Assembly: GCF_004944975.1 (NCBI RefSeq)
Contig: NZ_SPQG01000013.1
Span: 32,340 to 96,339 of the forward strand
Origin: Halorhabdus amylolytica
GTDB taxonomy: Archaea > Halobacteriota > Halobacteria > Halobacteriales > Haloarculaceae
Length of the DNA: 64,000 nucleotides
Direction: 5' to 3'
Both the position numbers and the translations under genes were made by a program. Shown one piece after another: positions 41,595 to 44,823 of the stretch. Below the pieces are notes generated by a model. It was not told the origin of the DNA and did not search any database. It saw only the letters and a list, made by a program, of their open reading frames with translations. Positions within the stretch are counted from its first letter, which is position 1; each line of letters begins with the position of its first letter.

Positions 41595-43241
41595 TCACGC
41601 CCGTTTCCGATCGGAATCGAAGGAGATGTCCAGTTCGTCGAGTTTCTCGGCCCACTCCTCGCGTTTTTCCTGGTGGGTTTCGAGGAACTCCGCCATCAGT
41701 TCGGCGGCCTGCTCCTTGCAGCCCCCACAGAGCCGTTCGCCACCGGCACACTCCTCGTAGACCGTCGTCGCGAGTTCGTCGTCATCATCTGCGAGCAGAT
41801 AGGCGTACAGCTCGTAGACCGGACATTCGTCGGGTTCTCCGCCGAGTTCGCGCTGTTCCTCCGCGGTCTCGCGCCCACCCGTCGTCGCCGCCCGGACTTT
41901 GTCGTAGCCGTCCTCCGGGTCGTCAAGCAGAGAGATATGACTCGCCGGCACGGAGGAAGACATCTTCCCACCGGTGAGGCCAGTCATGAAGCGGTGATAG
42001 ATCGAAGAGGGAGCCAGAAAGCCGTATCCGCCGTGATCGAGTTCGACCGTGCGAGCGAGTTCCTCGGCGGCCGCTCGATCCAGTTCGAATGCGTCGATGT
42101 GTTCGTCGTAGACGCGCTTCTCGCCGTCGATGGCCTCGATCAGCGCCTCGAAGGCTTCCTCGGTGGCGTTGCGGTCGAGGAACCGGACCCGGGGCCGAAG
42201 TGGTTCCTTGCCGGTCTCTCGGAGCATCGTGATGACCCGATCGACCGCCATCGTGTCGGGATCAGTGGCGTCCCGGTCCCGCCCGTTGTCGAGGTAGGTG
42301 GCGGCGTCACCACACCGAACGGTCTGGTCAGGGTGTTGCTCGGAGAGCGTCTCGTAAGCCTCGGCGATGAGTTGGCGTTCCTCGTCGTCGGTCTCGAAGG
42401 AAGCGTAAGCCTCGGTGACGCCGAAATATCGCATCCGGGCGGCCACGTCCCGCGCCAGGCGCATGTGGGGATCCTGGTCCGGGCCGACGGGGATGACGGT
42501 CGGTTTCGGCTCGTCGAGTTGCGGGTAGAGGATGTCGGCGATCTGTGTCACGACGCTTTGCATGTGGCTGACGTCGGTCTCGCCGTCGAAACCGTAGATC
42601 CCCTGGAACTCGGCGAAGCGCGCTTCCGCGCCGAGTTCGAACGCCAGATCCTGCAGTTCGCGGTTAGCCGACTGCCGATAGAGGGTTCCCTCCTCCGGAT
42701 CGAAGCCAAGCGCGAGCAGCGAGAGAATGTAGTCCCTGGCGTGTTCGTCGATCTCCTCCCACGTGAGGCCACGGGCGGCGTGGGCCTCCAGATCGGCAAT
42801 GAGTCCGTAGGCGTCCCCGCCCTGGCGTTGGTGCCAGATGATCTCGTCGAAGACGAGTTTGTGGCCGATATGGGGGTCTCCGGTGGGCATGAAGCCCGAG
42901 AGTACGGCGAAGGGGTCGTCCTCGCGCATGGCCCGGGCGACCGGTCGGTAATCGCGGTGACCGAAGATGACCCCGCGGCGCATCAGGTAGTGGGGATCGG
43001 GCACTTCCGGGAGCACTTCGTCGAACTCCTCGATGCCGAACTCCTCGAAGAGGTTGCGGTAGTCGGCGACCGTCGAGGAGCCCCACGGATCCAGCGTCGT
43101 GTCGTCAGCCCCCTCGGCTCGCGTTCCGCCGTCGGTGCGCGTTTCAGAGTTAGTCGGCTCACGTCCTCGGTCGGCTGTCTGTTCGTCGTCTGTCGGGTCG
43201 CAATCGGTCAGTTCGTCGTCGATGTGTGTGTCTCGCGTCAT
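41595..43241 (-). CDS. trpS: Tryptophan--tRNA ligase
   Basis: 548 aa from ATG 43241. Class I synthetase with PTGDPHIGHKLVFDE (HIGH motif, about residue 115), QRQGGDAYGLIADLEAH and GGKMSSSVPASHISL (KMSSS motif, about residue 420). An acidic, low-complexity N-terminal extension of about 60 residues (DELTDCDPTDDEQTADRG) is usual in haloarchaea. endA lies upstream on the same strand across a 375-base gap that holds a predicted promoter and a short leader ORF. Confidence 0.96.
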   Translation of the reverse strand: MTRDTHIDDELTDCDPTDDEQTADRGREPTNSETRTDGGTRAEGADDTTLDPWGSSTVADYRNLFEEFGIEEFDEVLPEVPDPHYLMRRGVIFGHRDYRPVARAMREDDPFAVLSGFMPTGDPHIGHKLVFDEIIWHQRQGGDAYGLIADLEAHAARGLTWEEIDEHARDYILSLLALGFDPEEGTLYRQSANRELQDLAFELGAEARFAEFQGIYGFDGETDVSHMQSVVTQIADILYPQLDEPKPTVIPVGPDQDPHMRLARDVAARMRYFGVTEAYASFETDDEERQLIAEAYETLSEQHPDQTVRCGDAATYLDNGRDRDATDPDTMAVDRVITMLRETGKEPLRPRVRFLDRNATEEAFEALIEAIDGEKRVYDEHIDAFELDRAAAEELARTVELDHGGYGFLAPSSIYHRFMTGLTGGKMSSSVPASHISLLDDPEDGYDKVRAATTGGRETAEEQRELGGEPDECPVYELYAYLLADDDDELATTVYEECAGGERLCGGCKEQAAELMAEFLETHQEKREEWAEKLDELDISFDSDRKRA

Positions 43242-43320
43242 TGCTATCGTACTTGTGTGGTCGAATCCCGAAGCCACCGGGCCGAGAAAGCGGAGTGAGC
43301 ATCGCCCGCCGGGCGGCGAG

Positions 43321-43401
43321 TTAGGCCCGCCAGCCGGGGACGGCGACACTGTCCACTTCCCGGGGGTGCCAGCGACGGACGTCGGGAGAAGTGGACGCCA
43401 T
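43321..43401 (-). CDS. Putative 26-aa Trp-containing leader peptide upstream of trpS
   Basis: ATG 43401 to TAA 43321-43323, encoding a 26-residue peptide with two Trp codons, in RRWHPREV (residue 11) and PGWRA (residue 24). It follows a TATA-like AGTTAAAC near 43427 and a purine-rich GGTGGAG, and ends 79 bases before the trpS start. An 11-bp inverted repeat (43384-43396 with 43351-43361) lies inside it, and GC-rich stems cover its stop. The arrangement is that of an attenuation leader; there is no proof that it is translated. Confidence 0.35.
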   Translation of the reverse strand: MASTSPDVRRWHPREVDSVAVPGWRA

Positions 43402-43616
43402 GTGCGTACGTCTCCACCAGCAGGGGTTTAACTGTTGTGAGACGACACGCCCGAGAGTAAATCGAAGCTCAGCGAAACGACTCGACGAGCAAGACAACGC
43501 CAGTAAGCCAATATGTCCGGTTGTAGAAACATATGACTCGGTGATCCGTAGCAATCGTATGAACGAAACGAGTCCGGACGACCAGTGACGCGAGGACGGA
43601 CGGCCGTTCAGCGCGT

Positions 43617-44663
43617 CTACGGTGTCAATCGACCGACTTCGAGCCACTCGATGCGGGGCTCACTGCTGGCGTCAGCGTCGGTCACCAGCGCGAAGACCAT
43701 CCGCTTGCGCACGCCGTGGGCCAGTCGGACGTCCAGCGCGAGATCGCGCGGGGTAAAGGCGTGATCGGCGGGCAATACGCGAACGAGTAACTCGGAGTGA
43801 CCCAGCGAGTCGACGCTCTCGACGTCGGCGTACGTCCGGAAGTCCGCGCCGAACTTGTAGCCCGTCTTGGGGACGACCCCCCGGTCCCGGAGTGTCCGAT
43901 ACACCGCCAGCCGGCGATCGAAGCGCTCGCCTTCGACCTCGCGACCGCACTCGACGATCGCGTCTGCGCCACCCTGCACGTCGAGCACACCCCGACCGGC
44001 CAGTGCGGCGGCCTCGACCAGCGAGAGTTGCAGGGGCTTGCCAGTCTCGTCGTCCAGTGGCTGTCCGTAGAACCCCTTGTGATAGAGTGCTTCGGGCGGA
44101 TCCCAGACCAACACGCGATCGCCAAGCAGGTCGGCCCCGACGCCGGTCGGCAGGTCGACCGTCGTCGACCCCTCGATGTCGGGGTGGGCGGTTTCGAGGT
44201 AGGTGATCGCCGACTCCTCGTCGACGACGGCCAGGACGGTATCCCCCAGCGACGCCGCGGAGACGTCTGTTCGCTCGCTTTCCGCTCGCACGCGATAGGC
44301 AACGGCGTCGTCCCAGGGTCCCTGCCCACGGGGATAGACGACGAAGTCCGCCCCTGCCGGATCCTCGACCCAACCCTCGCAGGCTGGTGAGAGGTAAAAC
44401 CCCCGATCCCGGAGGTCCTTGTAGACGAGGACGGCGATCTCCGAGACTGCTGCCGAGGACAGCAGGGCTCGGAAATCCAGGGAGTCGCCGCTTGCGCCGT
44501 CCCGGACGGCCTCGACGTCACCCCGGTAGAGCAAGTGGGCGGCCTCGACGGGTGCCAACACCAGTCCGCTGGCCTCCACCCGACCGTACCCACGCGAGTC
44601 GTAGAAGCGCTCGCGGGCATCGCTGCCCCCGCGGACCACCCCGTTTTCCAGGACCAGTTCCAT
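43617..44663 (-). CDS. endA: tRNA-splicing endonuclease
   Basis: 348 aa from ATG 44663. It cuts bulge-helix-bulge RNA in pre-tRNA introns and pre-rRNA, including the rrn stems in this window. Two tandem domain pairs are visible; the C-terminal half has the catalytic triad: Tyr in ADFRTYADV, His in LGHSELLVRV, Lys in HGVRKRMVFAL. The N-terminal half (residues 1-170) is a degenerate repeat, giving the two-domain form that works as a homodimer. Next to trpS, as in other haloarchaea; haloarchaeal tRNA-Trp has a large intron. Confidence 0.94.
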   Translation of the reverse strand: MELVLENGVVRGGSDARERFYDSRGYGRVEASGLVLAPVEAAHLLYRGDVEAVRDGASGDSLDFRALLSSAAVSEIAVLVYKDLRDRGFYLSPACEGWVEDPAGADFVVYPRGQGPWDDAVAYRVRAESERTDVSAASLGDTVLAVVDEESAITYLETAHPDIEGSTTVDLPTGVGADLLGDRVLVWDPPEALYHKGFYGQPLDDETGKPLQLSLVEAAALAGRGVLDVQGGADAIVECGREVEGERFDRRLAVYRTLRDRGVVPKTGYKFGADFRTYADVESVDSLGHSELLVRVLPADHAFTPRDLALDVRLAHGVRKRMVFALVTDADASSEPRIEWLEVGRLTP

Positions 44664-44767
44664 AGGTCGACGTCCCCGCGGGTGGGCAAAGGGGCTACGA
44701 TCGGCACTCGAAAACCGACGTGAGAGCCATTCCACGAGCGCCCATCAAGATTCGGCCAACACTGTTG

Positions 44768-44823
44768 TCACGGTTCGACGGGTACGGTCGTCACGGTTCG
44801 ACGGGTACGGTCGTCACGGTTCG
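44768..44823. repeat. Short tandem repeat, 23-base unit
   Basis: Two perfect copies of a 23-base unit (44768-44790 and 44791-44813) and a 10-base partial third copy. The first bases of the partial copy form the stop codon of the next minus-strand gene. Confidence 0.85.

Follow-up and report, generated by a model that had tools for sequence, protein, structure and literature searches.

Does the short reading frame that precedes the tryptophanyl-tRNA synthetase gene of Halorhabdus amylolytica belong to a regulatory element, and if so, what would that element sense and control? The window analyzed here, a stretch of 64,000 nucleotides, carries on its minus strand a trpS gene (41595..43241) whose 548-residue product is a tryptophan–tRNA ligase of form A (NCBIfam NF008928, 1029 bits against a cut-off of 891). 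This is probably the sole TrpRS of Halorhabdus, since the other matches stem from one ORF that reads, by eye, as a TyrRS. Close trpS genes are present in seven Halorhabdus genomes, the closest named trpS locus being that of Halorhabdus salina. Upstream of trpS on the same strand lies an ORF of 26 codons (43321..43401), which runs from an ATG at 43401-43399 to a TAA at 43323-43321, encodes the product MASTSPDVRRWHPREVDSVAVPGWRA and ends with 79 bases between its stop codon and the trpS ATG (43241). Its Trp codons are codon 11 (43371-43369) and codon 24 (43332-43330); the first lies between the arms of an inverted repeat, GTCCACTTCTCCC (43396-43384) and GGGAAGTGGAC (43361-43351), and GC-rich stems come 3′ of the repeat. 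The sequence AGTTAAA at 43433-43427, 26-32 nt 5′ of the leader ATG, is TATA-like and, together with the ACAAC that precedes it, forms a predicted BRE/TATA-like promoter (43427..43438, 26-37 nt before the leader AUG). An earlier note on this DNA had described the ORF, its two Trp codons, the gap to trpS, the repeat around the first Trp codon, the stems and a start just after a TATA box; on checking, the sequence bears all of these out, the TATA box as a prediction. Elsewhere in the window, between two genes, positions 44766-44823 hold a short head-to-tail repeat with a unit of ~24 bases, cacggttcgacgggtacggtcgt.

The analysis suggests, with a probability of about 0.72, that this region is a ribosome-mediated attenuator with a leader peptide, that it senses charged tRNA-Trp and controls trpS, and that it is widely conserved in haloarchaea. 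Comparison across genomes supports the leader ORF, its promoter, its Trp (once Ser) codons, a first helix (P1) and the potential for an alternative helix (2:5); from these we infer translation of the leader, termination as the output, the involvement of FttA and the direction in which the system would respond. The case rests on the wider family, not on the Halorhabdus copy. When the window leader was folded as a single sequence, no significant signal was obtained (z −1.39), so that the evidence for the element is comparative. Within Halorhabdus, the first Trp codon (43369..43371) is invariant in 7 of 7 genomes, and the second (43330..43332) is not conserved, being Trp in three genomes and Arg in four. 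The Halorhabdus leader accordingly reads as a reduced version of the family, with one invariant Trp codon and an unconserved second one. Its geometry is also tight, as a ribosome positioned on codon 11 would reach into the first bases of the strand on which the proposed switch turns. The Halorhabdus trpCBA operon was checked as well, and no such leader was found there.

The family was assembled from 87 trpS loci of Halorhabdus and other haloarchaea. An ORF of the same form stands upstream of trpS in Halorhabdus, Halapricum, Halorientalis, Haloarcula pellucida, Salinibaculum and several MAGs, with leader peptides such as MASTSTDRWRWCWQAPEVDSLAAVTRRA, MPSTSRTDAWRWRWHETEVDSVAFPGR and MAASDGWRWRWQNPPEADSLVTPAAR. 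An alignment of 16 trpS leaders (A1) yielded a covariance model, R1, with matches in 172 of 392 haloarchaeal genomes, spread over 57 of 95 genera; a second covariance model, R3, had matches in 166 of 376 good genomes. Among the named carriers are Natrinema, Natrialba, Halorussus, Haloarchaeobius, Halosimplex, Halovenus, Natribaculum, Halobiforma and Halogranum. With each of these covariance models, over half of the sampled haloarchaeal genomes gave no match; in a scan of a phylum sample, all nine genomes with matches belong to the same order. For the sequence-only model, low-scoring matches on the opposite strand were excluded as an artefact of the palindromic repeat. Many trpS loci that lack the leader (L084, L092 and L075 among them) carry a conserved element resembling GAAGCGAACGCTTTTTGCG, placed ~28 nt 5′ of the trpS start, and in some species this element overlaps the end of an upstream endA-like gene. 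Its position fits the promoter of a leaderless trpS, which it probably is, and the idea that it forms part of the same leader was dropped.

The genes that follow the element point to tryptophan metabolism. Of 90 R1 matches that were read, 88 precede a TrpRS gene: form A, as in the window, in 27, and form B, a different TrpRS, in 61, the form B call having been made for one example by NCBIfam NF008927 and for the rest by sequence motif or by eye. One further match (L146, G021:C166:6141-6273) places the Trp leader MLSAFRSWSWRWYRSGKRTVS before a trpD gene, assigned by NCBIfam, and then a trpF-like ORF, making its target a Trp biosynthesis operon rather than a synthetase; the last is followed by a SAM-methyltransferase-like gene. 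One and the same RNA is thus found with Trp genes that differ in descent. Some related leader RNAs contain only a few Trp codons or none (L240 and L241 in G055 and G127; L237 and L239 in G443 and G278; L227 and L238 in G193), and the genes behind them encode a GNAT acetyltransferase, an ABC transporter and a SAM methyltransferase.

The codons of the leaders are distributed as would be expected if they were decoded. These are short ORFs rich in codons for the amino acid that would be sensed, placed upstream of the target: most have two to four Trp codons per ~25 residues, and outside Halorhabdus the position of the first Trp codon holds WRW or WRWRW runs. Counted over 88 leaders, from the start codon to the downstream arm of P1, the reading frame contains 1353 codons, of which 181 are TGG; the two other frames contain 48 and 9. 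When starts were assigned from the position of the promoter, 81 of these 88 leaders had their Trp run in the matching frame, a conservative figure because the start picker took an implausible ATG in a few leaders, which were then scored out of frame. Moreover, two species of one genus (G197 and G174) have the same RNA before serS with a Ser run, SRSRSQSS (MESTSRSRSQSSFWEVDS...), in place of the Trp run (L242:102-1379 on G197:C4, and L256 on G174:C9), and a further copy (L228, G197:C2) precedes a serS-like frame broken by a stop. The leader codons thus match the enzyme encoded downstream. This exchange is the strongest argument that decoding, and not a nucleotide motif, is what selection would have preserved, and it rests on one genus. 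A pattern search of 195 genomes for further codon-swapped copies gave almost only TrpRS leaders, with 75 places listed, and the reversed control pattern gave 6 matches.

Across the 88 leaders, A/T-rich peaks occur at −36 to −34 and at −30 to −27 from the leader start, positions that fit BRE and TATA, respectively. Because a BRE/TATA-like element lies ~30 nt 5′ of the leader AUG, the leader mRNA is expected to be leaderless or nearly so, and that of the window is probably leaderless.

Five segments make up the predicted RNA structure. Segment 1 (43384..43396), which lies within the leader ORF at codons 2-6, is the 5′ arm of P1 and pairs with segment 2 (43351..43361), with the Trp codons between them. 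Segment 2 can pair instead with segment 5 (43284..43294), a pyrimidine/U-tract, TCCGCTTTCTC, that is the putative terminator; this 2:5 helix would enclose a hairpin formed by segments 3 (43341..43350) and 4 (43298..43306), which pairs in the alignment (100% of cells for segment 3) and in the window is predicted in both states. The leader stop codon (43321..43323) sits inside the loop closed by hairpin 3:4; in 71 of 77 leaders the stop falls 3′ of segment 2 and 5′ of segment 5. The inverted repeat of the earlier note corresponds to P1 and stands; the key alternative partner of segment 2 is the segment 5 tract (pairing at 43294-43286), which lies beyond the bases that the note had covered. The two helices are mutually exclusive, and P1 overlaps the control codons. 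P1 covaries strongly: 96% of its cells in A1 are paired, against 33-53% in slid controls, and four pairs are altered on both sides. All eight pairs of 2:5 are possible in 69 of 85 sequences. In permutation tests, which are inflated by sequence relatedness, the arms of P1 in 89 distinct sequences paired with their own partners at a mean of −20.2 kcal/mol, against −15.8 kcal/mol with permuted ones (0 of 2000 permutations as good), segments 2 and 5 likewise did better with their own partners (5 of 2000 as good), and the control pairing of segment 1 with segment 5 showed no own-partner advantage (1804 of 2000 as good); a more cautious figure is the genus-level Fisher test for the three-way changes at position 58 (U-A-U, C-G-C, C-G-U), with p of 3e-4. 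Variation in 2:5 in the first alignment is mostly G-U exchange, and a purine-rich strand pairs readily with a pyrimidine-rich one, a caveat on this helix, so that its support is best regarded as moderate and weaker than that of P1. The energies of the two states are nearly equal, with a median difference of 2.4 kcal/mol over 82 leaders.

Taken together, these features suggest how the switch may operate. Transcription would start at or just before the leader AUG, and a ribosome would load at the extreme 5′ end of the RNA. When Trp-tRNA is plentiful, the ribosome would clear the Trp codons and finish on the stop codon, inside the 3:4 loop; P1 would then re-form between segments 1 and 2, and segment 5 would be left single-stranded to act as a terminator before trpS, most likely through recruitment of FttA/aCPSF1. 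When Trp-tRNA is scarce, the ribosome would stall at the Trp codons, within the P1 loop, and cover segment 1 but little of segment 2. The latter would then be free to pair with segment 5, enclose hairpin 3:4 and hide the U-tract, and the polymerase would read into trpS.

Segment 5 ranges in many species from CUUUC to CUUUUUUC, and it is similar in form to the terminator of Haloferax, whose T-stretch closes with a C and whose termination efficiency in a reporter was 95% (PMC7237163). Against this role stands the scarcity of consecutive U in certain species (CGUUCUC) and in the window, where no more than three occur in a row. Terminator U-tracts are bound by aCPSF1/FttA (PMC8716108), and the structure of FttA indicates that U-rich RNA is best placed at −30 to −36, counted from the 3′ end of the RNA (PMC11616081). 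Between segment 5 and the trpS AUG lie mostly 47-62 nt, a nearly constant spacing that fits this preference and would leave room for the polymerase to terminate before trpS.

The main rival, which we regard as unlikely, keeps the same leader and switch and makes the output translational: stalling would alter the structure of a full-length mRNA, and thereby access to the trpS start, with no premature termination. The near-constant distance between segment 5 and the trpS start could suit such an output as well, and the final 20 nt 5′ of trpS are mostly A/C-rich among the loci listed. However, a Shine–Dalgarno-like motif is absent in 81 of 83 loci, as it is from the spacer of the window (43242..43283), whose length is nearly constant in relatives; segment 5 lies ~50 nt from the start codon, so that the 2:5 helix leaves the initiation site uncovered, and the tract itself has the look of a terminator.

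Less probable still, and in our estimate improbable, is that the inverted repeat serves as a DNA operator, or as the site of an RNA-binding protein, for a Trp-responsive regulator, and that the ORF is incidental. Such a site would account for a repeat that is strong, well conserved and just 3′ of the promoter, but not for Trp codons that stay in frame with the start between the arms, vary in number along with loop length and become Ser codons before serS, nor for the pairing that segment 2 also keeps with a segment 5 far downstream.

Reversed polarity is very improbable. Here the 2:5 helix and hairpin 3:4 beside the U-tract would be the terminator and P1 the antiterminator, and stalling would turn trpS off. 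A GC-rich hairpin leading into a U-tract does look like the terminators of bacteria, and in a Haloferax reporter one hairpin motif reached 59% termination (PMC7237163). Nevertheless, TrpRS would then fall just when Trp-tRNA runs short; a T stretch is the main intergenic signal in Haloferax, with no clear general structure signal found at its termination sites (PMC7237163), and aCPSF1/FttA works through U-tract RNA (PMC8716108, PMC11616081). Finally, a chance ORF with chance stems in a GC-rich intergenic region, a reading for which the pair of Trp codons among 26 and the fold z of −1.39 would by themselves pose no difficulty, has almost nothing left to recommend it, as the same anatomy recurs over 57 genera, almost always before a Trp gene, and the covariation of P1, the frame bias of TGG and the Ser leader before serS already contradict it.

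The proposed attenuator is therefore the reading that we retain, and the form of attenuation seen in the earlier note is supported by the conserved Trp-run leaders, the Ser version, the covarying P1 and the potential of 2:5. The conservation of ORF and Trp codons with compensatory stem changes that the note had looked to in related haloarchaea is found there, and its doubt that two Trp codons might be chance is dispelled by the WRWRW runs of the relatives and the Ser version before serS.

Ribosome-mediated attenuation is a textbook bacterial mechanism, exemplified by the trpL leader of the Escherichia coli trp operon and by the pheST leader, which controls a synthetase. T-box riboswitches of Gram-positive bacteria also control synthetase genes in cis according to tRNA charging, trpS and serS included, and bind the tRNA directly, without a translated leader. 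The haloarchaeal element shares with the bacterial attenuators a short ORF that carries codons for the amino acid being sensed, RNA structures that exclude one another and a terminator-like element before the gene, and shares with pheST an aminoacyl-tRNA synthetase as target. It differs in its archaeal host, in its probably leaderless ORF and predicted BRE/TATA promoter, and in its layout, with a first hairpin that encloses the Trp codons in its loop and an ORF that spans segments 1-3 and stops in the 3:4 loop; the presumed terminator, moreover, is a U/pyrimidine tract hidden by pairing rather than a hairpin followed by a U-tract. With T-boxes it has the target genes trpS and serS in common, but its reading frame and codon run are conserved. 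A search of positions 43100-43700 of the window against Rfam 15 (4227 families) gave no match to any family at E <= 5, the T-box covariance model and the bacterial Trp leader families included; the element may work as the latter do, but is no detectable homologue of them.

Among archaeal systems, the pyrimidine/T-stretch-C form of segment 5 and its distance before trpS fit FttA/aCPSF1-dependent and U-tract termination (PMC8716108, PMC11616081, PMC7237163); no description of ribosome control of such a site through RNA pairing was found in the literature searched. The endA-trpS1 locus of Haloferax volcanii has the same form of TrpRS beside endA, the two genes overlapping by 4 nt, and trpS1 has its own promoters, located inside endA (PMC7714728); the portions of that paper drawn on here make no mention of a leader peptide. 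The earlier note had remarked that translation-coupled attenuation is not an established mechanism in haloarchaea, and in agreement with this no report of archaeal attenuation was found in the open-licence papers searched. The element is in kind the leader-peptide attenuation known from bacteria, and its host, promoter type, layout and presumed terminator are new as far as the search extends. On balance we favor the view that haloarchaea possess an attenuator family of their own, an independent archaeal invention that would combine leaderless leader peptides with U-tract/FttA termination and set its specificity by swapping the codon run, Trp before trpS or trpD and Ser before serS.

The serS codon swap is a natural experiment that points straight at the sensing mechanism, and the element offers a compact reporter system. 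If the proposed attenuation is true, its conservation in slightly under half of the haloarchaeal genomes sampled would give U-tract/FttA termination a part in regulation and would show that translation and transcription in archaea are coupled tightly enough for termination to be controlled in cis.
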